Shown here piece after piece: positions 2,670 to 25,212 of a stretch of DNA of 30,680 nucleotides. This stretch comes from a virus. The translations under genes were made by a program, and so were the position numbers. Below the pieces are notes generated by a model. That model was not told the DNA's origin. It was given only the letters and a program-made list of their open reading frames with translations, and did not search any database. The stretch is taken from positions 1 through 30,680 of IMG/VR virus record IMGVR_UViG_3300017769_000077; one strand, given 5' to 3'. Every line of letters begins with the position of its first letter. Within the stretch, counting starts at the first letter, position 1.

Positions 2670-3057
2670 TAGATTAATAATGGCTCAAACAATATGGGGT
2701 GAGTCAAGAGGTGAAACTAAAGAAGGGCAATACGCAATTGCTCATGTTATTAAAAATAGATTAGACTCTAAAAAATGGTTTAGTGCAGATACTTTAGAAG
2801 GTGTATGCAAAAAGAAATGGCAGTTCTCTTGTTGGAATGAAGGCGACCCGAACAAAGAAAAAATGGAACAGCTTACTCACGGAGATATAAAAGACTTTGT
2901 TGATATAGCAAATAATGTTTTAGATGGATTGCACGATAGTAATGTCGGTAAAGCTACTCATTACTATGCAGATTATATTAGTGAACCTAAGTGGGCAGAA
3001 GGAAAAACCCCCATCACAAAGATAGGGGTTCATCATTTTTACGAAGATATAGATTAA
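2656..3057 (+). CDS. SleB-like cell-wall hydrolase (endolysin)
   Basis: 133 residues from the ATG at 2656, chosen because AAGGGGA lies 5 bases upstream; an in-frame ATG at 2638 lacks such a site. The sequence TIWGESRGETKEGQ holds Glu16, the expected catalytic acid of the SleB/Hydrolase_2 family, followed by the typical AIAHVIKNR and a C-terminal KIGVHHFY motif. These enzymes cleave peptidoglycan glycan strands. There is no signal peptide, so release to the periplasm would need the holin at 4067. A hairpin at 3003-3030 inside the 3' end of this gene is probably the terminator of the opposing cassette. The lysin is separated from the holin by that cassette. Confidence 0.88.
   Translation: MDKSDRLIMAQTIWGESRGETKEGQYAIAHVIKNRLDSKKWFSADTLEGVCKKKWQFSCWNEGDPNKEKMEQLTHGDIKDFVDIANNVLDGLHDSNVGKATHYYADYISEPKWAEGKTPITKIGVHHFYEDID
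3003..3030 (-). terminator. Intrinsic terminator of minus-strand cassette A, inside the lysin gene
   Basis: On the minus strand AACCCC-T-AT and AT-G-GGGGTT pair around a 7-base loop (8 pairs with one C/A mismatch), and the 3' arm runs straight into TTTTT. It lies just past the stop codon of the minus-strand gene ending at 3054. On the plus strand the nearest T-run is five bases away, so the minus direction is the better fit. Confidence 0.65.
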
Positions 3058-3278
3058 GATACTTTAACAAATTCTTTTATCCATAAAGCTAATCTTCTGT
3101 ATTCATAATATTTTTGAACAGTTTTTTTAGTTAGTTTCATTTGTTTCATATTTTCCTCAGTGATGCCTTGCCATTTGCCATCACCTTGAAAAGAAAATTT
3201 ATCAAATGCTTTATCTATTAATATTAATAACTCTTTTGTTGATCTAATATTAAGAGGTTTAGATTTATCTTCAATCAT
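3054..3278 (-). CDS. Cassette A gene 3, unknown small protein
   Basis: 74 residues, last of three genes in a minus-strand cassette, with AAAAAAGGAG about 7 bases before ATG. It is basic and helical; residues 45-70 (MKQMKLTKKTVQKYYEYRRL) contain many Lys/Arg/Tyr and could touch nucleic acid. Its stop overlaps the stop of the plus-strand lysin by 4 bases, a convergent arrangement. No family was recognised. As part of an accessory cassette, a host-takeover or anti-defence role is possible but nothing in the sequence proves it. Confidence 0.65.
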   Translation of the reverse strand: MIEDKSKPLNIRSTKELLILIDKAFDKFSFQGDGKWQGITEENMKQMKLTKKTVQKYYEYRRLALWIKEFVKVS

Positions 3279-3292
3279 GCATTACTCCTTTT

Positions 3293-3580
3293 TTAACAAG
3301 CATAAACAGTTTTTAATAACTTAATTTTTTTATTAGTTTCGACACAATGAAAACCATTGATATAATCGAAACACCATTCATCTTTGATTTCTGAAATATC
3401 ATAAATGTTTACTGGAAATACATGATTTCTTTTAAACTTAAATAAATGTTGCCAATCTCTTTTGCACAATCTTGCACATTTGACTGAAACATGACCTATG
3501 TCAGAACCTTGAAACCAAGTTGAACCAGCGCCAATAAAAATAAGACCTACGTATTGTATTTCTTTTTTATCTTTTTTCAT
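3293..3580 (-). CDS. Cassette A gene 2, unknown Cys/aromatic-rich protein
   Basis: 95 residues with a near-perfect ribosome site (AAAGGAGGTAAT before ATG) overlapping the end of the upstream gene. The N terminus is lysine-rich, then a hydrophobic strand (QYVGLIFIGAGSTWFQGSD), and Cys35, Cys39, Cys69, Cys79 and Cys95 are spread through the chain without a clear CxxC pair. It appears to be a small folded cytoplasmic protein. No family recognised. The strong ribosome site suggests it is well expressed when the cassette is on. Confidence 0.65.
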   Translation of the reverse strand: MKKDKKEIQYVGLIFIGAGSTWFQGSDIGHVSVKCARLCKRDWQHLFKFKRNHVFPVNIYDISEIKDEWCFDYINGFHCVETNKKIKLLKTVYAC

Positions 3581-3867
3581 ATTACCTCCTTTAGTTGTTT
3601 TATGATTTCTTTTATGCGTGCAGTCTTAGTAATTGCTTTAAATAATTTTAAATAAAATTTTGCATTCTTTTTATTTAAAGTACATCCAGCAGTTTCTAAT
3701 GGCCAACCCATAAGATATGCTAATCTCATTTTCTGAGATACAGGTGTAGCAGGATTGCCACGCCTAACTTTTTTGTATTCACCAGTTACACTGTAAATAC
3801 AATGATGGTACTTACGATCAGTTTTGACGAACCAAACATAAGTTCCGCAATCAATTAATTTATACAT
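3577..3867 (-). CDS. Cassette A gene 1, unknown basic protein
   Basis: 96 residues, first gene of the cassette, 21 bases downstream of the predicted transcription start. AAAAAGGAG precedes ATG by about 8 bases, in a leader (GGAGTAAGACCG) shared with other minus-strand units of this phage. The N-terminal half is beta-like with Tyr/His (TYVWFVKTDRKYHHCIYS); the C-terminal half is basic helical (KLFKAITKTARIKEIIKQLK). A DNA- or RNA-binding role is possible from charge alone. No family recognised; the last bases overlap the next gene start by 4 (ATGA-type coupling). Confidence 0.68.
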   Translation of the reverse strand: MYKLIDCGTYVWFVKTDRKYHHCIYSVTGEYKKVRRGNPATPVSQKMRLAYLMGWPLETAGCTLNKKNAKFYLKLFKAITKTARIKEIIKQLKEVI

Positions 3868-3887: not shown

Positions 3888-3953
3888 TAAAAACATCATA
3901 TCATGTTTTTTGTTTAAAGTCAAAAACGCTGTTACACATGTAACAATGTTATA
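3888..3953 (-). promoter_or_regulatory. Cassette A promoter with composite operator
   Basis: On the minus strand a -35 TTGACT (3918-3923) and -10 TATGAT (3895-3900) are 17 bases apart, a near-consensus sigma70 promoter pointing at the gene starting 3867. Directly upstream of the -35, at 3926-3953, lie two tandem palindromes, TATAACATTGTTACA then TGTAACAGCGTT, which recur at other minus-strand promoters of this genome. Placement upstream of the -35 would allow activation or looping as well as repression. Confidence 0.75.
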
Positions 3954-7072: not shown

Positions 7073-7316
7073 AAAATTTATTTGTCCTAGTTGTGAGTCA
7101 ACACATTTAAAATCAGAATTAAATGTATCACCTGATGGTGTTGGTCCTTGGGGTCATGTTCATGCTATGGATAGGTGTGGCCAATGTGATGAAACTATAC
7201 CTACTCATTTGTCACGTCGAGATAACATGACAAAAGAGAAGGCACAGCAAAATTATTTACGAGACAAACAATTAATTAATTTAATTTTTTTAGAAGGTTC
7301 TCAGGCCGTAAATTAG
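7065..7316 (+). CDS. Small zinc-ribbon protein
   Basis: 83 residues, start overlapping the previous stop by 8 bases. C7-x-x-C10 (ICPSCES) and C38-x-x-C41 (RCGQCDE) form a four-Cys zinc ribbon with a 27-residue insertion. The C-terminal half is charged helix. Such small phage ribbons may bind DNA, RNA or polymerase, but there is no specific match. Its 3' end overlaps the 3' end of int on the other strand by 41 bases, so the two are convergent. Confidence 0.7.
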   Translation: MHKKFICPSCESTHLKSELNVSPDGVGPWGHVHAMDRCGQCDETIPTHLSRRDNMTKEKAQQNYLRDKQLINLIFLEGSQAVN

Positions 7317-8247
7317 TATATCGTTTAAGCATTTTCCAATCTTTGTGACCGCTAACTAAAGCAACCTCAGGAATTTGAAAACCTTTTTCAAACAAACGAC
7401 TTATACCTTCATGTCTCATGTCATTAAAACGAAGATCATCAAACTGTAACTTAGCCATCAATCGTTGCCACTGACTCTTTAATGCTTCATAACTAGGTAA
7501 GTCATTACGCATCATTAAGTTATAAGCCTTTGTTGGTATTGGTATTTTTCTTTTACCAATATGTTTCACCGTCTTATGTTCATCTAAAATTAATAAATAA
7601 CCATTCTTTGTTTTCTCAATTTTATATTCACGGTTAATCCATTCCGCCTTACGCATACATGTTAGTATAGCAATCTTAACGCTGGACCATAACTCAGATG
7701 ACCCATGCTTACACAACATTTTTAATTCGTAAAACGATGGACGACGATCACGCGCATCATCACCTGTAACTGGCTTCTTCACCTCCACAGCAGGATTTAT
7801 TATTCGCATTTCATGTTCTTCAATAGCATGATCATAAATTTGTTTAATACGATTAACACGCTTATGAATACTGGTAGGTGCTAAATGTTTTTTACTGGTT
7901 ACGTATTGCTTAATTATTTTTTTTGTTAGATGTAAAGGTCCTTCTTTTATATCTAATAATAATCTAAAATCTTTTACCAGCTTCCTTACCATCCGTATCT
8001 GTGCTATTTCATCAGATAATTCAGGAAGTTTTTCTTTTTCATATAAGATAGCTAACTCATCAAAACATTTATTTTCTGAGTAGGTATCTAGCTTCTTACG
8101 ATCTATGTCGGTGATGGTATGATGAATAAACTTTTCCGCAATAGTTTTATCAAAAAATTTTTCAGAGATTTCCACGCCTTGCATCCTAATGCAAACATGG
8201 AAAACTTTGGTCCCATCTTTCTTAATATATTCTTTCGTATATTTCAT
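7276..8247 (-). CDS. int: Tyrosine-family site-specific integrase
   Basis: 323 residues from the ATG at 8247, which has AAAAGGAAAC upstream; the frame is open further up only because it runs through the attP tRNA remnant. The N-terminal 150 residues contain arm-binding and core-binding helices (SAM-like, residues about 60-150). Catalytic residues: R199 (LTCMRKAEW), K225 (DEHKTVKH), N275-D-M-R278 (the usual first His of HxxR is Asn here), H301 (VSGHKDW) and nucleophile Tyr310 (KRYTNL). It should recombine attP with the host tRNA-Phe gene. The promoter with an operator lies beyond attP at 8380-8408, so integration would separate it from the gene. Confidence 0.92.
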   Translation of the reverse strand: MKYTKEYIKKDGTKVFHVCIRMQGVEISEKFFDKTIAEKFIHHTITDIDRKKLDTYSENKCFDELAILYEKEKLPELSDEIAQIRMVRKLVKDFRLLLDIKEGPLHLTKKIIKQYVTSKKHLAPTSIHKRVNRIKQIYDHAIEEHEMRIINPAVEVKKPVTGDDARDRRPSFYELKMLCKHGSSELWSSVKIAILTCMRKAEWINREYKIEKTKNGYLLILDEHKTVKHIGKRKIPIPTKAYNLMMRNDLPSYEALKSQWQRLMAKLQFDDLRFNDMRHEGISRLFEKGFQIPEVALVSGHKDWKMLKRYTNLRPENLLKKLN

Positions 8248-8316
8248 TTTGTTTCCTTTTGTGTTAATACCGAGAAAAAAGATGTCTAAGCAGGATACTC
8301 GCCCCTCGCCATGAGA

Positions 8317-8361
8317 CTGAAAATCCTCGTGTCGGTGGTTCGATTCCACCCTTGGGCACCA
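8317..8361 (+). other. attP core: 3' half of tRNA-Phe
   Basis: From the anticodon loop C-T-GAA-A-A (8317-8323) the sequence continues through the 3' anticodon stem, variable loop, a perfect T-arm (GGTGG-TTCGATT-CCACC, 8334-8350), acceptor strand CTTGGGC and ACCA at 8358-8361. The 5' half, D-arm and the expected GCCCAAG are absent. A tRNA 3' half next to int with phage genes on both sides is the standard look of attP rather than attL/attR. Anticodon GAA gives Phe. A crossover in the anticodon or T-arm region would rebuild the host tRNA. Confidence 0.85.
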
Positions 8362-8379
8362 CTTTTCTAGGTATTATCT

Positions 8380-8425
8380 ACAATATAAAAATGTTCTATG
8401 TTTGTCAAACCATATAACAATGTTA
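8380..8425 (-). promoter_or_regulatory. int promoter with single operator, upstream of attP
   Basis: On the minus strand TTGACA (8403-8408) and TATTGT (8380-8385) are 17 bases apart and point at int. Immediately upstream of the -35 is GGTAACATTGTTATATGG (8411-8428 region), the same TAACA-T-TGTTA palindrome found at the accessory cassettes. The transcript would cross attP antisense to the tRNA half before reaching int. Confidence 0.6.
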
Positions 8426-8455: not shown

Positions 8456-8512
8456 AAAAAAAGCAGGGGATAGTTAGATTAGGACTTAGTTATCTACTGG
8501 GATTACCCCCTG
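8456..8512. terminator. Possible bidirectional terminator after the early operon
   Basis: CAGGGG (8464-8469) and CCCCTG (8507-8512) are inverted repeats around a 37-base loop. On the minus strand the distal arm is followed by CTTTTTTT, and on the plus strand by TTTTTC. The 6-bp GC stem is good but the loop is long, so termination is only possible, not certain. It would separate the early operon from the int promoter. Confidence 0.4.
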
Positions 8513-12848: not shown

Positions 12849-13616
12849 TTATATGGATATTTGTTCTACTTTATAATCTTCATCAAATAAGGTAGCTGTA
12901 GTTATTCGTGGATAAATAGCATTAAATTCACAATCTTTAATTAATGCAAACTCATTAACCCACATATCTTTGTATGACACCATTCTGCCGTTTTCTTTAA
13001 ATTTTAAATCGTCTCTATTTATGTGTTTGCTTTTCCACCATTGAAACACGCAAGTACCATCTTTGTTAAATTCTAATACTTGACCATAATAAAACATATT
13101 GTTTGCTTTTCTTTGAACAAATACATCAACATTAATTAATCTTTCTTTTAATTTTTTATCATTAACCCAATTTTTGTGATCAAAGTCTATAAGAGAAAAT
13201 GCAGGAATATTATTACCATCATAAACACCCCAAAAAAATGCTTTTTGAGATGGTTTTAAAAAAGCATTATTTAAAAAATAAATAACTTCAATAGGTTCAT
13301 CATAATTTCTAGGTACAAAATGAGATTTTTTATAATCAAACTTTTCAATTATTTCTGTTTTAACAATATTATCACTAATAATTTGATTTATTTTAATATC
13401 TAAAACTCTAGCTAATTCTTGAAGTTGTGAAAACTTTACATCAGTAGTGCCTTTTAAAATTGTTGCAATAGTTTGATGAGACATTGAACCATAACCCATA
13501 GGTGCATCAGCAGTAAGCACAGATAATGTTCTGCCTGCTGGAGAATGACCTTTTTCTTTAACTAACGCATTTAAGTTAATTAAATATTTTTTTTGATCTA
13601 ACAGTTTCATTTGCAT
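12849..13616 (-). CDS. XRE-family repressor (CI-like), non-S24 C terminus
   Basis: 255 residues; GAGG precedes ATG. The N-terminal part contains an XRE HTH (SHQTIATILKGTTDVKFSQL and ELARVLDIKINQI at about 47-83). The C-terminal 150 residues (VDVFVQRKANNMFYYGQVLE, CVFQWWKSKHINRDDLKF) are probably a sensing or dimer domain; they do not show the Ser-Lys S24 self-cleavage signature. Its gene diverges from the replication operon and lies before the early operon promoter, the expected place for the lysogeny repressor. Induction would need another mechanism than LexA-like autolysis, if this reading is right. Confidence 0.8.
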   Translation of the reverse strand: MQMKLLDQKKYLINLNALVKEKGHSPAGRTLSVLTADAPMGYGSMSHQTIATILKGTTDVKFSQLQELARVLDIKINQIISDNIVKTEIIEKFDYKKSHFVPRNYDEPIEVIYFLNNAFLKPSQKAFFWGVYDGNNIPAFSLIDFDHKNWVNDKKLKERLINVDVFVQRKANNMFYYGQVLEFNKDGTCVFQWWKSKHINRDDLKFKENGRMVSYKDMWVNEFALIKDCEFNAIYPRITTATLFDEDYKVEQISI

Positions 13617-13784
13617 AAAAAACTACCTCAATTAATAAATGTTTACAAACATTTTATTTATAGACTCTTTTTTACAATGTAAAGATAATTTGACAATTTT
13701 ATTTAAAAATATATTTTGTCAAATATTGGATAAGATTTTCCCACTTTTCCAACAATAATTAAATTAGGACTTAGAAAGTTTAAC
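13617..13784. promoter_or_regulatory. Divergent switch region with palindromic operators
   Basis: Between repressor and LexA-like gene lie AATGTTT-AC-AAACATT (13638-13653), TTTACA-A-TGTAAA (13671-13683) and TTTGACA ... TGTCAAA (13689-13695, 13717-13723). TTGACA at 13690-13695 may serve a plus-strand promoter. The minus-strand repressor promoter may use TTTACA with TATAAA 15 bases on. These palindromes are likely repressor or LexA-like sites. Confidence 0.55.
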
Positions 13785-15409: not shown

Positions 15410-15628
15410 TCACTTATTATCTTTATCCAATCCAACATTAATAACTCCATCTAATCGTTTTAATTGTTCATCTTCAGGAAGGGAGTCAAAATCAGCAGGA
15501 AATGAAATACCTTGTTGGGTTTTAAGCATACGCTTTTTCCAAGCTATTTCATCCGCTTTAGTTCTTCCAAGCATATTACCTAATGATGCTATTGTTGATG
15601 CCAATTTAAGGCTATTTATACTTGTCAT
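15410..15628 (-). CDS. Cassette B gene 2, unknown small protein
   Basis: 72 residues from ATG at 15628, six bases after GAGGTG; the ATG overlaps the previous stop as TAATG. Residues 4-22 (INSLKLASTIASLGNMLGR) are a weakly hydrophobic helix, then a charged region with PADFDSLPEDEQLKRLD. It may be a small membrane-associated or helical partner of gene 1. No family recognised. Confidence 0.65.
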   Translation of the reverse strand: MTSINSLKLASTIASLGNMLGRTKADEIAWKKRMLKTQQGISFPADFDSLPEDEQLKRLDGVINVGLDKDNK

Positions 15629-16056
15629 TATGACCACCTCGCTTCAGCATACATCGGATGTTGATGTGCCAGTTCGTAAGCTATTTGATCTTTGATACTA
15701 TCTAAGATTTTGTACCAACCTTTTTTGGTACTATCACCTTCACATGATTGATACATGTAACATTCCAAACTTTTTAGTAATTGTGCTTTATTGCTACTAT
15801 TCATTAATGAATTAGCTTGGGCAATTACTTTTTCAGTTTTAATATCAAAATATAATTCTTCAGCATCATCTGGATAACGCTGTTTTAAACTATATCTATT
15901 CCAAGTTAATAAATTTTTAACATAAGAAAATGGGTCCTTACTTGCATTTGATTTATGTTTTTCAACACCTTTGTATTCTCTACCATGTATTCCAGCTAAC
16001 TTAACAGCCTTTAATACATCGCCTAATACTTTTTCATTTACTTGATATGCACTCAT
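15628..16056 (-). CDS. Cassette B gene 1, unknown protein
   Basis: 142 residues, first gene of cassette B, with AAAAAGGAG before ATG in the shared leader (GGAGAAAACCG). The protein is helical, slightly basic and rich in Tyr/Lys (YVKNLLTWNRYSLKQRYPDD, SLECYMYQSCEGDSTKKGWY). Two Cys lie close together at about 108-114. No family was recognised. Its promoter holds the composite operator, so it belongs to the same regulatory group as cassettes A and D. Confidence 0.7.
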   Translation of the reverse strand: MSAYQVNEKVLGDVLKAVKLAGIHGREYKGVEKHKSNASKDPFSYVKNLLTWNRYSLKQRYPDDAEELYFDIKTEKVIAQANSLMNSSNKAQLLKSLECYMYQSCEGDSTKKGWYKILDSIKDQIAYELAHQHPMYAEARWS

Positions 16057-16079
16057 CGGTTTTCTCCTTTTTGTTTATA

Positions 16080-16115
16080 AACACTGTTATAGTGTATAAC
16101 AATGTTATATGTCAA
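16080..16115 (-). promoter_or_regulatory. Cassette B promoter with composite operator inside the spacer
   Basis: On the minus strand TTGACA (16110-16115) and TATAAC (16086-16091) are 18 bases apart. The spacer and -10 are filled by the tandem palindromes TATAACATTGTTATA and TATAACAGTGTT (16080-16109), 18 bases centre to centre. A protein bound here would block polymerase, so repression is expected. The layout is almost base-for-base the same at 25177-25212. Confidence 0.75.
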
Positions 16116-17822: not shown

Positions 17823-19100
17823 TTGCCTACTTATACTATTCCGTACAAACCAAGGAAACATCAAGCACAGTTACATCGTAAACTAAAGCGCTTTAACGTC
17901 ATTCCTGCACATAGAAGATTTGGCAAGTCCTACTTTTGTTTGGCAGAGACATTAAAGAAGTGTTTTGAGTGCCAGCTTCCAAACCCTCGGTATTATATAA
18001 TATCGGCTACGTATTCTCAGGTAAAAAAAATACATTGGGATACGCTAAAATTTTTAACAAAAAATATTAAGGGAACTACGTATCACGAGACAGAACTTCG
18101 TTGTGATATGGTAGGGGGGAGAAGAATACAACTATTAGGGGCCGACGGAAATAGCGTTGACTCTATTCGTGGAATTTTCGCGGACGGTGTTATTCTTGAT
18201 GAGTGTCAGTTACTCCATAAAGATTTATTAAATAAGGTCTTACGGCCAGCTTTAGTCGATAGACACCAGTTGGATAAAAAATCGGGATGGCTAATCGCCA
18301 TCGGGACCCCTTCGGGGCATAATTTTTTTTATGACCTTTATATGAATAATAAAGGCCACAAAGATTGGTTTGTTAAAAAGTACACCGTAGAAGATACAAA
18401 AATAATACCAAAAGACGAGTTGGACAATCTAAAGAATATGATGTCCCCAGAAGAATATGATACCGAGTTTATGGTAGATTTTGACGCTGGAGTCGTTGGC
18501 GGTATTTACACAAAATCAATGCAGATGGTGGAAAATGAAAATAGAATTACTAATGTTCCTCACATCGCAGAGTTACCCGTTACCACATTTTCCGATATTG
18601 GATTTCGTGATGCTTTTAGCATTGTTTTTATTCAAAAGGTAGGTTCGGCTATACATGTTATTGATCATTTAGAAGGGTCAGGAGAGAGTTTAGAATACTA
18701 CGCTAATAAACTAAAAGAACTCCCTTATACTTATGATAATCACTTTGCTGGGCATGACATAGTGGTTACTGAGTTAGGGTCAGGAAAAAGCAGGCAGGAG
18801 ATAGCATCTAATTTAGGATGGTTTATACAACCTGTTCCCAAACTTAAAATAGAGGACGGAATAAACTCTTTACGGATGTCCTTAAAACGATGTTATTTTA
18901 ATAAAGACAAAACAGACTACCTCATTAATTGTTTAAAACAATACCGATGGAAAAAAAACCAACTAGGAGAGCAAACGTCAACACCTCATCACGGACCTGA
19001 AAGTAATTCATGTGATGCAATGAGGTATATGAGTATAGGCTTGAACGAGTCAAGCGACTGGTCCAGTAAACTTAATTACGGGCCTTCTGGGATAGTTTAG
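17823..19100 (+). CDS. terL: Terminase large subunit
   Basis: 425 residues from a TTG start; no ATG or GTG lies between the upstream in-frame stop (17793) and this point, and the ribosome site is weak. R31-R-F-G-K-S36 is the Walker A of phage terminases and GVILD126E127 is the Walker B; IGTPSG is the coupling motif. The RNase H-like nuclease has D258 (FSDIGF), D312 (GHDIVV) and D398 (SNSCDAMRY). It pumps and cuts DNA into the capsid. Length is typical for compact TerL. The last 29 bases overlap the 3' end of the opposing HTH gene. Confidence 0.92.
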   Translation: MPTYTIPYKPRKHQAQLHRKLKRFNVIPAHRRFGKSYFCLAETLKKCFECQLPNPRYYIISATYSQVKKIHWDTLKFLTKNIKGTTYHETELRCDMVGGRRIQLLGADGNSVDSIRGIFADGVILDECQLLHKDLLNKVLRPALVDRHQLDKKSGWLIAIGTPSGHNFFYDLYMNNKGHKDWFVKKYTVEDTKIIPKDELDNLKNMMSPEEYDTEFMVDFDAGVVGGIYTKSMQMVENENRITNVPHIAELPVTTFSDIGFRDAFSIVFIQKVGSAIHVIDHLEGSGESLEYYANKLKELPYTYDNHFAGHDIVVTELGSGKSRQEIASNLGWFIQPVPKLKIEDGINSLRMSLKRCYFNKDKTDYLINCLKQYRWKKNQLGEQTSTPHHGPESNSCDAMRYMSIGLNESSDWSSKLNYGPSGIV

Positions 19101-19308
19101 AAACCTTTTTTTCTAAAAAGGCAATACGTTTATCTTTTTCAACGATTTGTTCTTTGAGTCCAAGACCCCAAGCCAACTGGTTATTCACGGGCCTACGGCC
19201 ATTGAAATAATTACCGACGGCTGTTCGGGTAATACCGACTTCCTTCGCCAGCTTCCCTTGGGATATACCAAGAAATTTTAGTAATTTTCTAAATTGAAAT
19301 TTAGTCAT
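19072..19308 (-). CDS. Small HTH regulator with C-terminal coiled coil (cassette C)
   Basis: 78 residues on the opposite strand between TerL and portal. Residues 13-40 (LGISQGKLAKEVGITRTAVG then NYFNGRRPV) form a Cro/CI-type HTH, with recognition helix ITRTAVGNYFNG. Residues 48-73 (GLKEQIVEKDKRIAFLEKKV) are a coiled coil that would drive dimerisation, as expected for a protein binding palindromes. The ATG has no ribosome site and overlaps the operator at 19309-19335, so leaderless translation and autoregulation are possible. It is the best candidate to control cassettes A, B, D and int. Confidence 0.75.
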   Translation of the reverse strand: MTKFQFRKLLKFLGISQGKLAKEVGITRTAVGNYFNGRRPVNNQLAWGLGLKEQIVEKDKRIAFLEKKVSKLSQKARN

Positions 19309-19335
19309 ATAACACTGTTACACTACAACAATATA
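19309..19335. promoter_or_regulatory. Degenerate composite operator between HTH gene and portal
   Basis: The plus strand reads AACACTGTTACA-CTACAACAATATA; on the minus strand TGTAACAGTGTT matches the second half of the composite operator exactly as in cassette B, while the first half is reduced (TATATTGTTG). The 34-base gap between the two divergent ATGs is filled by it. It may regulate both the HTH gene and portal. Confidence 0.6.
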
Positions 19336-19342
19336 ATAATCA

Positions 19343-21358
19343 ATGAAATTAACCAAAAAAAAAGAACAAGAACTAAAAGGCACTATTACACGCGAAATAA
19401 CTGATGCTTTAGGCTATCAAAACGGTAAACTGGTTCAAGAACGTTCCCTAGCCTTAGATTATTACAATTCAGAGCCATTTGGTAATGAAGTAGAAGGCAG
19501 ATCACAAGTTATAAGTAGTGATGTACTAGAAGCCGTAGAAAGTGTGCTTCCAAGTTTATTACGTATCTTTACCGCAGGAGACGATATTGTAAAATTCGAG
19601 CCTGTAGGTCCTGAAGATGAAGAAGCATCTAAGCAAGCCACGGAATATATTAATCATATAATATTTAAAGAAAATGACGGCTGGAAAGTATTTTATACGT
19701 GGTTCAAAGATGCATTAATTCAAAAAAACGGGTTTATAAAGCATTATTATAAATACGAGGATGAATTCCTCAAAGAGTCTTATAAAGGCCTTACAGAGAT
19801 AGAATATCAGGCTTTATTAATAGATGATGCTGTTGAAGTAGTTAACGTTGAAGAAGTCATTGAAGATAAAATGGTGATGACAGAGCAAGGTGAAATGGCA
19901 GACACCCAAACTGTATTTAACGTTGATGTTCGACGTAAATCATCATCAGGTAAAATTTGCATTGAAAACGTTCCTCCCGAAGAAATGCTTGTTTCTAAAC
20001 GTACCAAAACTTTAGCTGATGCACCTTACATTGCACACCGATTAAAAAAAACGGTTAGTGATTTAATAGGTGAAGGGTACGATAGAAAAAAAATAGAAGA
20101 TATACCAAACTACGCAAACTCAACATGGAATGAGGAGTCGCTAAGTCGTAACTTATTTAATGAAGAAAGTTACATGGACGAAAGCGCTGACCCTTCTATG
20201 CGCGAAGTTTTATATTATGAAAATTACATAAGAACAGATATTGATAATGATGGTGTAGCAGAATTATTAAAAGTTTGTACGGTAGGAGATACAAACGAAA
20301 TTTTACATGTAGAAGAAATATCATATATTCCTTTTTCTACTATTACACCGATTATTAATCCGCATCGTTTATTTGGAATGAGTGTTGCAGACCTCGTTAT
20401 GGACATCCAGCAAATAAAAAGTGTACTTCTACGTCAGTGTCTTGACAACGCGTTCCTTATGAACAACTCACGCGTATTGGCTGTTGACTCTCAAGTAAAT
20501 CTTGATGACTTACTACAATCGCGCGCAGGCAACATTGTAAGAGTTAAATCACCTAATGCTGTTGTTCCATTACAAGCACAAAACTTTATGCAAGAAGGTT
20601 TGGCAATGATGGAGAAAGTTGATCAAATAAAAGAACAACGTTCAGGCATTAGTAGGATGCAACAAGGCTTGGACCCTAACACTATACAAAAATCACATAC
20701 AACAGCAACAGGTGTTAAAGAAGCAATGGCATCGGCTGGTCAACGTATTGAAACAATTGCTAGAGTGTTTGCCGAAACAGGTATTAAAGATTTAATGAAT
20801 TGTTTGTTAAAATTAACAACACAATATCAAGACTATAAAAAAATAATAAAAATTAGAAACAATTACGTTCCAATAGACCCAAGAGAGTGGAAAAATAAAT
20901 TTAATTTAACAATAAACGTGGGGTTAGGAACAGGAAGCCATGAGCAACGGCTTCAAATATTAGGTCAAATTTTAGGCATCCAAGAAAAAATAATGATGTC
21001 AGGTAGTAAATTAGCAAATGAACAAAACATCTACAATACGCTAGAGCGCATGGTTCATAATGCTGGGTTTAAATCCCCGCAGGAATTTTTTACAAATCCC
21101 GAAACACTTCCTCCTGAACAGCCTAAAGACCCAATGCAAGAAAACCCGTTGCTTATTGCTACACAACAACAAATACAAGCTGACCGAGAAAAGAACATTG
21201 CTGAATTGCAATTGAAAAAAGAAAAGATGGAAGCTGAACTTGAATTAAAAAAACAAGAACAAGTAGCCGAGTTAGAATTAAAAAAACAAGAAATGCTAGC
21301 AGAGTTACAAATGGAAAGAGAAAAGATGAATAGAAAAGCACAGATGGGAACTTTATAA
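19343..21358 (+). CDS. Portal protein
   Basis: 671 residues. The N-terminal part (ITREITDALGYQNGKLVQER, EGRSQVISSDVLEAVESVLP, SLLRIFTAGDDIVKFEPV) is the classic start of P22/SU10-type podovirus portals; GLDPNTIQKSHTTATGVKEA is the usual stem/wing marker. Residues 600-671 are a Lys/Glu/Gln coiled coil (barrel-like end). Twelve copies form the DNA entry ring that docks TerL. No clear ribosome site precedes the ATG, which sits just after the HTH operator. Confidence 0.9.
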   Translation: MKLTKKKEQELKGTITREITDALGYQNGKLVQERSLALDYYNSEPFGNEVEGRSQVISSDVLEAVESVLPSLLRIFTAGDDIVKFEPVGPEDEEASKQATEYINHIIFKENDGWKVFYTWFKDALIQKNGFIKHYYKYEDEFLKESYKGLTEIEYQALLIDDAVEVVNVEEVIEDKMVMTEQGEMADTQTVFNVDVRRKSSSGKICIENVPPEEMLVSKRTKTLADAPYIAHRLKKTVSDLIGEGYDRKKIEDIPNYANSTWNEESLSRNLFNEESYMDESADPSMREVLYYENYIRTDIDNDGVAELLKVCTVGDTNEILHVEEISYIPFSTITPIINPHRLFGMSVADLVMDIQQIKSVLLRQCLDNAFLMNNSRVLAVDSQVNLDDLLQSRAGNIVRVKSPNAVVPLQAQNFMQEGLAMMEKVDQIKEQRSGISRMQQGLDPNTIQKSHTTATGVKEAMASAGQRIETIARVFAETGIKDLMNCLLKLTTQYQDYKKIIKIRNNYVPIDPREWKNKFNLTINVGLGTGSHEQRLQILGQILGIQEKIMMSGSKLANEQNIYNTLERMVHNAGFKSPQEFFTNPETLPPEQPKDPMQENPLLIATQQQIQADREKNIAELQLKKEKMEAELELKKQEQVAELELKKQEMLAELQMEREKMNRKAQMGTL

Positions 21359-22545: not shown

Positions 22546-23544
22546 ATGGCTGACAATCCTACACAGGAAACAGCGGTTACTGACGACGCTACGGTTCAAG
22601 AACCAGTAGCAAAAACAAACTTATTAGGTGAATTCGAGAACTTTATAACCGCAGAGAACGAAGCACCAACACAATCGGCTGAACAGGACGCGAAAGCACA
22701 ACCAGACGCAACCGAAAGTGAACCAACTCCCGACGATTTGGAATTAGAGGAAATTGACGACAACTCCCCAGCAGAAGCTAATGAGGAACTTTATTCAGTC
22801 AAAGTAAATGGCTTAGAAGAAAAAGTTAACCTTAACGAACTTCTTGCAGGATATAGTAGGCAAAAAGATTACTCGACTAAAACAAATCAGTTAGCAGAAG
22901 AACGCAGAGGTTTAGAAACCGAACGAACTAAAACGCAAGCTGAAATGGAAGCGGTCAAAAAAGAACGCGATGACTACGCAGTAAAACTAAAATCTTTTAT
23001 TAAACAAGACACAGAAGAAAAGATTGATTGGGACCAATTGTATAGAGACGACCCGATTGAATACGTTCGACAAAAAGCTGAGTCTGATAAAAAGAAAGAA
23101 GTACGTCAACAAGCGGAAGCAGAACTAAAGAAAATAGAAGCAAAACAAAAAGCAGAGACAGAAGATAAATACAAACAGTATGTTACTTCCCAGTCCGCTT
23201 TGTTACAGGAAAAAGTACCTGAGTATGCTGACCCCGTAAAAGGTGATAAGCTAAAATTAGGTGTAAAGAATTATTTAAATGATATTGGATTTAGTGATCA
23301 AGAATTGAGCATGTTAACCGATCATCGTACCGTCATGGTAGCGATAGAAGGTATGAAATATAATCAATTAAAGAAAGCTAAGTTAGATGGAAAAAAAGTA
23401 AACAAGGTTCCTAAAGTTTCTAAAGCTGGTGTTCCTACTTCTAAAGAAGATGTTAATTACGAAACTCGTCGCACAAGTTTTAAACGTGCTAAATCTGGCA
23501 AGTCAGAGGACATGTTAGATGCGTTTATGAACGTAATCAACTAA
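22546..23544 (+). CDS. Capsid scaffolding protein
   Basis: 332 residues. N-terminal 90 residues are acidic and disordered (EAPTQSAEQDAKAQPDATES), followed by LYSVKVNGLEEKVNLNELLA with GYSRQKDYSTKTNQLAEER, a motif typical of phage scaffold proteins. Residues 120-215 are a long coiled coil, and the C terminus is basic (RRTSFKRAKSGKSEDMLDAF), which is the expected capsid-binding end. Direct position before the major capsid gene agrees. Confidence 0.88.
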   Translation: MADNPTQETAVTDDATVQEPVAKTNLLGEFENFITAENEAPTQSAEQDAKAQPDATESEPTPDDLELEEIDDNSPAEANEELYSVKVNGLEEKVNLNELLAGYSRQKDYSTKTNQLAEERRGLETERTKTQAEMEAVKKERDDYAVKLKSFIKQDTEEKIDWDQLYRDDPIEYVRQKAESDKKKEVRQQAEAELKKIEAKQKAETEDKYKQYVTSQSALLQEKVPEYADPVKGDKLKLGVKNYLNDIGFSDQELSMLTDHRTVMVAIEGMKYNQLKKAKLDGKKVNKVPKVSKAGVPTSKEDVNYETRRTSFKRAKSGKSEDMLDAFMNVIN

Positions 23545-23562
23545 CTATATAGGAGAAAATAT

Positions 23563-24567: not shown

Positions 24568-24960
24568 TTATATGTGATTAACTTCCCAACAAGCATCACC
24601 ATTAATAGTTTCTGCAAGAAATTTATGTTGGTTTAAAACTCTATTAAGTGGGTCACTTATCCAGTGATGATGTTCGTTATCCCAAAGAAAACCACCCATA
24701 CCTTGGGATTGTAAATAAAAAGAAGCATCGTCACCTGATTTATTGTTTGGGTGACAAACAAAAAATGTTTTTGTTTCTGTATTATTAAAAATTTCAGAAA
24801 TAACTTCACCTTTAATATAAAAAGAAATATTAACATCGTGTTGTCCGTCACCATCATATTTTTCAACACGAACATTTGAAACTTTATCATTAAAAGTATT
24901 GTTTTTAAATTGATCTTTAACAAACTTAATTAATATTTTTTGTAATTTTGATTTAGTCAT
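24568..24960 (-). CDS. Cassette D gene 2, unknown protein
   Basis: 130 residues; AAAAAGGAT precedes ATG. The first part is a basic helix (KSKLQKILIKFVKDQFKNNT), then beta strands (NVRVEKYDGDGQHDVNISFY, KTFFVCHPNNKSGDDASFYL) and a His/Trp-rich segment (FLWDNEHHHWISDP) that might bind metal. Another frame on the same strand is only a shadow. No family recognised. It lies downstream of a 55-residue gene, with its own ribosome site. Confidence 0.68.
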   Translation of the reverse strand: MTKSKLQKILIKFVKDQFKNNTFNDKVSNVRVEKYDGDGQHDVNISFYIKGEVISEIFNNTETKTFFVCHPNNKSGDDASFYLQSQGMGGFLWDNEHHHWISDPLNRVLNQHKFLAETINGDACWEVNHI

Positions 24961-24984
24961 TGTTTTATCCTTTTTGTTTTAAAC

Positions 24985-24998
24985 GGGGATTATTCCCC
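24985..24998. repeat. Second copy of the GGGGATTATTCCCC hairpin
   Basis: The same 14 bases occur at 24545-24558. Here the hairpin covers the stop codon of the 55-residue gene and lies before the ribosome site of the next one. It could attenuate expression between the two, or be a trace of how the cassette was built. Confidence 0.65.
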
Positions 24999-25157
24999 AC
25001 CTTTGAATTGATTAAATAAATCTTCTTGCATTTTTTTTTGTTTCTTCCATTCATCAAAAGAAATTGTTTCAAGGCCATTAGCTTTTCTTGAATACATTTC
25101 TTCATCGTAGTTATCTTGTTCAGTTTGACCAACCCAAACATTATTTACATAAGCCAT
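24990..25157 (-). CDS. Cassette D gene 1, 55-aa protein
   Basis: 55 residues (MAYVNNVWVGQTEQDNYDEE start), with AAAAGGAG five bases before ATG; a good ribosome site and a promoter directly upstream make it a firm gene despite its size. It contains a short acidic middle and a helical end (FDEWKKQKKMQEDLFNQFKG). It is the first gene of cassette D, so it is made whenever the operator is free. Function unknown. Confidence 0.7.
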   Translation of the reverse strand: MAYVNNVWVGQTEQDNYDEEMYSRKANGLETISFDEWKKQKKMQEDLFNQFKGGE

Positions 25158-25176
25158 AATTACTCCTTTTGTTTAT

Positions 25177-25212
25177 AACGATGTTATACCCTATAACAAT
25201 GTTATATGTCAA
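25177..25212 (-). promoter_or_regulatory. Cassette D promoter with composite operator inside the spacer
   Basis: On the minus strand TTGACA (25207-25212), 18-base spacer, TATAAC (25183-25188). Tandem palindromes TATAACATTGTTATA and TATAACATCGTTATA fill the spacer and -10. Only the central triplet (GGG against CAC) and a few bases differ from cassette B, though the genes behind are unrelated. Confidence 0.78.

Follow-up and report, generated by a model that had tools for sequence, protein, structure and literature searches.

A lone HTH gene between terminase and portal as the probable repressor of dispersed cassettes and integrase in a clade of temperate phages

The 78-residue HTH protein encoded between the terminase and portal genes of an IMG/VR virus record is probably an autoregulated repressor that acts in trans on dispersed gene cassettes and on the integrase. 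The window that we analysed is the whole record of 30,680 bases, which encodes SU10-type portal, capsid and adaptor proteins together with an integrase, and which we read as a temperate tailed phage. Our argument is built from sequence: the gene and its predicted fold, the operators and their positions, and the co-inheritance of gene and operators among relatives.

The gene of this XRE/HTH_3 repressor candidate (19072-19308, minus strand, ATG start) lies antisense between the genes for TerL (17823-19100, TTG start) and the portal protein (19343-21358, ATG at 19343), and overlaps the TerL gene, which stops at 19100, by 29 nt. Its product matches the Pfam family HTH_3 (PF01381) with 31.4 bits (E 2e-7), above the gathering cut-off of 23, which places it in the family. 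The AlphaFold2 model (pLDDT 92) features helices at residues 3-13, 17-24 and 28-36, followed by a long predicted helix at 43-77, as expected of a coiled coil. The ORF is a real gene, judging by orthologues that are 54-100% identical, are found at the same place and show an excess of third-position changes. The recognition helix, TRTxxGNYxNGRRP, is unchanged in 16 orthologues, and the operator is likewise invariant. The original prediction of a lone antisense gene for an HTH and coiled-coil protein inside the packaging module thus agrees with the ORF, the Pfam score and the model. It was also right that this is an unusual place for a regulator: the location between TerL and portal, outside the immunity region, is conserved across the whole clade. 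A search of a genome collection returned no relative of the HTH protein and portal relatives of only 28-41% identity, PADLOC found nothing convincing for either the HTH protein or the cassette proteins, and Rfam and ARAGORN gave zero matches in the window.

Fifty-seven distinct sites, combined into a weight matrix, give the consensus TATAACANTGTTATA. The matrix finds seven matches above 8 bits in the window, all of them at proposed operator positions. Exact sites of the form TAACANTGTTA (TAACA-N-TGTTA) occur five times, whereas 300 second-order Markov simulations gave an expectation of 0.14 and never more than 2. Enrichment is slight once up to two mismatches are allowed (56 vs 42), and we therefore accept only sites that are exact or nearly so and have an extended palindrome. 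One exact site, TAACACTGTTA at 19310-19320, ends 1 nt before the HTH ATG; the chance of an exact site falling into the gap between the HTH and portal genes is about 1e-4. This site had been described as a degenerate operator copy that fills the 34-base gap to the portal ATG. In fact, the only mismatch is a single one in the outer 15-mer TATAACANTGTTATA (19308-19322), and the operator covers about one third of the gap.

The same site precedes the gene in the relatives. Among orthologues with a direct start there are 12 distinct upstream contexts, and every one of them has TAACRNYGTTA 1 nt ahead of the HTH ATG, with invariant TAAC and GTTA arms. One arm of this operator reads TAACG in several relatives, and autoregulation may be weaker there. 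L018 and L019 differ in that a 61-aa ORF separates the operator from the HTH gene, an insertion that is coupled to the gene by TAATG and leaves the operator ahead of the new first ATG. The operator at the gene's own start, its presence in 12 of 12 direct-start contexts and its retention upstream of an insertion all argue for the autoregulation that was originally proposed. The inserted ORF (L018 3270-3455, MFKKGDKVWVLQ...) forms an operon with the HTH gene in two relatives and lacks a Pfam or PHROG match; its product is a candidate repressor partner. A role of the operator as an RNA hairpin is ruled out, as a 1-base loop is too short. No consistent -35 could be fixed for the HTH promoter; one reading among others is TTGATT followed by a weak -10 that overlaps the operator.

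In the four long contigs that were mapped, operators recur at the HTH start, before the integrase, as a pair in cassette D between the capsid and adaptor genes, and as a pair in cassette C beside the replication genes; most of the four also have a pair in cassette A, in the lysis region. Cassettes C and D have the common promoter TTGACA-TATAACANTGTTATA-NNN-TATAACANTGTTAT, with operator 1 occupying the spacer and operator 2, 18 bp away, lying over the -10. In cassette D of the window, the leftward promoter comprises the -35 TTGACA (25207-25212, minus strand), operator 1 in the spacer between -35 and -10 (25194-25204) and operator 2 over the -10 (TAACGATGTTA, 25176-25186). The genes (24568-25157, minus strand) are a 55-aa ORF (24990-25157) and a 130-aa ORF (24568-24960), the product of the latter having neither Pfam nor PHROG matches. 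The corresponding elements of cassette C are the -35 TTGACA at 16110-16115 (minus strand), operator 1 in the spacer at 16097-16107 and operator 2 over the -10 at 16079-16089 (AAACACTGTTA), with ORFs of 142 aa and 72/75 aa (15410-16056, minus strand). These genes are swapped for others in relatives, including one for a Mom-like DNA-modification protein in the cassette C operons of L025 and G005 (phrog_1384, E 2e-15 for the L025 protein). In cassette A, the operator pair (3924-3951, 17 bp apart) is located just upstream of the promoter TTGACT-17-TATGAT, and the operon (3054-3867, minus strand) contains ORFs of 96, 95 and 74 aa inside the lysis region.

Across the clade, about 30 distinct cassette promoters have this repressor-type geometry, with an inverted repeat within the core promoter. 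The shared promoter module precedes 38 distinct first genes in 23 families, a count that stood at 29 genes in 20 families before the last scan. The cassette promoters are directed opposite to the late genes, into the major capsid gene for instance. When ten cassette or inserted proteins were scanned, none had a Pfam match and three had PHROG matches, all of unknown function; none of the known Acr proteins was recognised in the cassettes. In two relatives (L025 6717-8214 and L092 9553-11050), cassette C encodes the Mom-like protein and a 248-aa partner (phrog_3628, function not known).

The integrase gene (7276-8247, minus strand, Pfam PF00589) has an operator at 8415-8425, upstream of the promoter TTGACA-17-TATTGT, and a weak second site at 8386-8396. 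In both halves of the clade, the integrase promoter is part of the regulon. Alignment with G002 puts the probable true start of the integrase, MKYTKEY, at 8247, after attP. Between the promoter and the ORF lies the 3' part of a tRNA (8330-8361, plus strand), identified as tRNA-Phe by comparison with L037, which is probably the attP core. A probable attP core is situated between an operator-bearing integrase promoter and the ORF in the window (8247-8425), in G002 (23380-23560) and in G005 (17830-17990); it corresponds to the 3' part of a tRNA, which is tRNA-Phe in the window's subclade and has the anticodon CAU in the other. Integration would part the integrase gene from its promoter and leave the promoter directed antisense into the host tRNA.

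Relatives were collected by scanning IMG/VR with the HTH protein, the portal protein, operator pairs and a replication protein; this yielded many loci from one clade, of which only those spanning the TerL-portal junction were used to count co-inheritance. The HTH gene is present at this junction in 39 partly redundant loci, corresponding to 27 distinct contigs whose portal proteins are 81-100% identical. All 27 contain operators (109 motif matches over the 39 loci), as against none of 18 portal relatives that lack the HTH gene (209 kb). This co-inheritance supports the proposal that the HTH protein regulates the TAACA-N-TGTTA regulon. Relatives that lack the gene and yet keep the operators were looked for, and no such case was found among the 27 contigs with it and the 18 without, so that the proposal is not refuted. 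The closest HTH-less relatives that we examined couple TerL directly to portal by a stop/start TAATG, which makes the HTH gene an insertion that interrupted the coupling. One HTH-less relative (L067 1420-2072) has an ORF for an HNH-like endonuclease at the junction, which we take to be an unrelated insertion; the junction thus takes insertions elsewhere, too. As all relatives are from one clade, shared descent explains part of the co-inheritance, and a single gain of the HTH gene, with the operators gained in the same ancestor, could be partly behind it. The best evidence independent of this is that cassette genes are replaced while the operator before them stays constant, that operators appear in the early region where CI is absent (see below), and that L018 and L019 retain the operator. 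Operator pairs outside the clade (L035, L041, L047) are inside ORFs and are probably coding repeats or chance occurrences. Six loci with no homology to the clade, representing three distinct sequences, contain TTGACATATAACANTGTTA; each has one site and no second operator, and these matches were dismissed as chance.

These observations suggest the following mechanism, of which binding, dimerisation, repression, timing and the role of the cassettes are what we infer. The HTH protein would be a small dimeric repressor with the lambda-repressor (XRE) fold that binds the palindrome TATAACANTGTTATA, dimerisation being suggested by the palindrome and the long helix. Its own site just before the ATG would make its expression self-limiting. 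At the cassettes, the strong TTGACA promoter has its spacer and -10 filled by two tandem sites, where bound protein would exclude RNA polymerase; it is this promoter geometry that points to repression rather than activation. The site before the integrase promoter would bring the integrase under common control. With the cassette promoters opposed to the late genes, such a brake would stop antisense transcription through the structural genes once the cassette products have been supplied at entry, the part that anti-CRISPR-associated (Aca) proteins play at anti-CRISPR operons. That the cassettes have an accessory or anti-defence role is a guess, made from their size, their variability and the one Mom-like protein.

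The window also contains a CI-like gene at the usual immunity position (12849-13616), whose HTH_26 match (E 0.0025) is below the cut-off. This slot is variable among the phages (12849-13616 in the window; L025 3922-4578; L037 6079-6888), being occupied by different poorly annotated HTH-like proteins or by nothing. The operators in the neighbourhood of the slot bear on the possibility that the HTH protein is, now or ancestrally, the main lysogeny repressor of the clade, the phages with a CI-like gene having added or swapped in a second repressor; from the sequences we consider this a real possibility, and one that we lean against. In all five CI-less loci tested, the early region between the divergent promoters contains two strong operators, and a scan of 40 ORFs of one such phage (G002) found no HTH_3 protein other than the HTH protein, so that it may be the lysogeny repressor in the CI-less subclade. 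Control of the integrase promoter in both halves of the clade fits this possibility as well. However, the early promoters in the window's half of the clade lack such operators, and here the HTH protein would at most be an auxiliary repressor.

The preferred reading, a trans-acting repressor, has also to be weighed against activation. It is rather unlikely that the HTH protein activates some or all of its targets, as lambda CI does at PRM. The main operators at site A and at the integrase do lie upstream of the -35, and operator 2 at site A has its centre near -41, some 6 bp ahead of TTGACT, in a classic activator position. In cassettes C and D, however, which account for the most numerous sites, the operators are inside the promoter, as befits polymerase exclusion; the HTH protein could also both repress and activate.

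We think it very improbable that the sites are owned by the CI-like protein, as the normal immunity repressor, and that the HTH protein has another target. Its position and weak HTH match would suit such a role, and the control region before its gene contains TTACAATGTAA, which is somewhat operator-like. Yet the region adjoining CI has no operator above 4 bits in all seven loci that carry CI, whereas the CI-less phages have strong operators (5/5), and the operators remain unchanged while the slot contains quite different proteins (L025-type, or L037-type with 24% identity to a window-type protein) or none. Finally, it is hardly credible that the HTH protein is an antitoxin of the HigA kind regulating only itself, the other sites being unrelated: it has a weak HigA match (20.9 bits vs a cut-off of 47.7) and HigA2 is among the fold matches, but the HTH gene stands alone in the window, with neither a toxin neighbour nor a small ORF in an operon with it, and the same palindrome is found at dispersed conserved places only in phages carrying the HTH gene.

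The absence of a visible ribosome site, noted originally for both the HTH and portal genes, was borne out by calculated Shine-Dalgarno energies of +0.1 and +1.8 kcal/mol, respectively; the TTG start of TerL is weak (-0.4 kcal/mol) and the cassette genes have clear Shine-Dalgarno sequences of about -5 to -13 kcal/mol. The suggested control of portal synthesis is unsupported: the sole evidence for it is the site within the 34-base gap upstream of portal, and the TATAAT-like -10 before the portal ATG is poorly conserved. Among the 38 cassette first genes, 18 have an ATG that follows operator 2 immediately, at 12 or 13 nt from the counting point and 6-7 nt past the -10. Nearly all of the others have a spacing of 28-39 nt, mostly with a Shine-Dalgarno sequence. 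An ATG directly behind operator 2 is located where transcription should start, which suggests leaderless mRNAs for many cassettes. The start of the HTH gene has a layout similar to that of the 18 cassette genes, and leaderless translation of the HTH protein is plausible.

The Aca repressors are among the closest known systems. The best structural matches of the HTH fold are Aca2 (Z 9.1, 72 residues, 1.5 Å), Aca10 (Z 8.0) and Aca1 (Z 7.0), Z values that are common for small helical proteins, and none of the Acas of solved structure is among its phmmer (E up to 1) or profile (E up to 0.01) matches. We therefore say that the HTH protein works like an Aca, but do not file it as one. The likeness to Aca1, Aca2 and Aca10 is that of a small phage HTH protein with the same predicted fold, with an inverted repeat within the core promoter, autorepression and control of small accessory genes (PMC9410906, PMC8434428). 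Aca operons have one or two inverted repeats (PMC9410906, PMC8434428), always including one in the core promoter, and the existence of solo Aca genes that act in trans has been proposed (PMC9410906). Unlike an aca gene, the HTH gene stands alone in the packaging module, outside the operons that would be controlled, there is no anti-CRISPR gene in an operon with it, and its product would act on several scattered operons and the integrase.

Other systems resemble the regulon in part. Aca8 and the archaeal rudiviruses also have one regulatory sequence before many small, variable and mostly unannotated genes, the rudivirus regulator being a predicted wHTH protein under the same shared early regulatory sequence (PMC11065993); in contrast to the rudiviruses, with their archaeal promoters and wHTH, we are dealing with a bacterial tailed temperate phage, palindromic tandem operators and an integrase in the regulon. 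In mycobacteriophages of cluster A, too, one repressor has many sites scattered over the genome, but these repressors are monomeric and their asymmetric sites also stop elongation (PMC9283540, PMC6550527), whereas the HTH operators are palindromic and located at promoters. CI and Cro of lambda and P22 share the XRE/HTH_3 fold, tandem operators over promoters and autoregulation; unlike CI, the HTH protein has no peptidase or oligomerisation domain, its gene is in the late region, and a separate CI-like gene is present.

A single, easily recognised promoter-operator module marks accessory genes across this phage clade and so offers a way to find them; guilt by association would miss the cassette genes because their regulator is encoded far away. 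If the Aca analogy is true, they are candidate anti-defence or lysogenic-conversion genes. The clade also provides a natural comparison, since some of its phages have a separate CI-like repressor and others do not; whether a small regulator from the packaging module can serve as immunity repressor thereby becomes testable. A more elaborate scheme, which we regard as doubtful, is that of an Aca-like master repressor made in the lysogen, closing in trans the integrase and anti-defence islands (in CI-less phages also the early promoters) and switched off by antisense late transcription, so that the position of the gene would be part of the lysis-lysogeny switch, with the HTH mRNA and many cassette mRNAs leaderless.

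Two further features were seen in the early region. In three CI-less phages (L136 5437-5500, L138 and L141), the leader of the early leftward operon contains a GGGGTCC...GGACCCC hairpin followed by a T-run, a possible attenuator or terminator. In the window, TTAGGACTTAG occurs in both flanks of the early region, at 8470-8490 and at 13760-13775 (attaggacttag), and is possibly another regulatory repeat.
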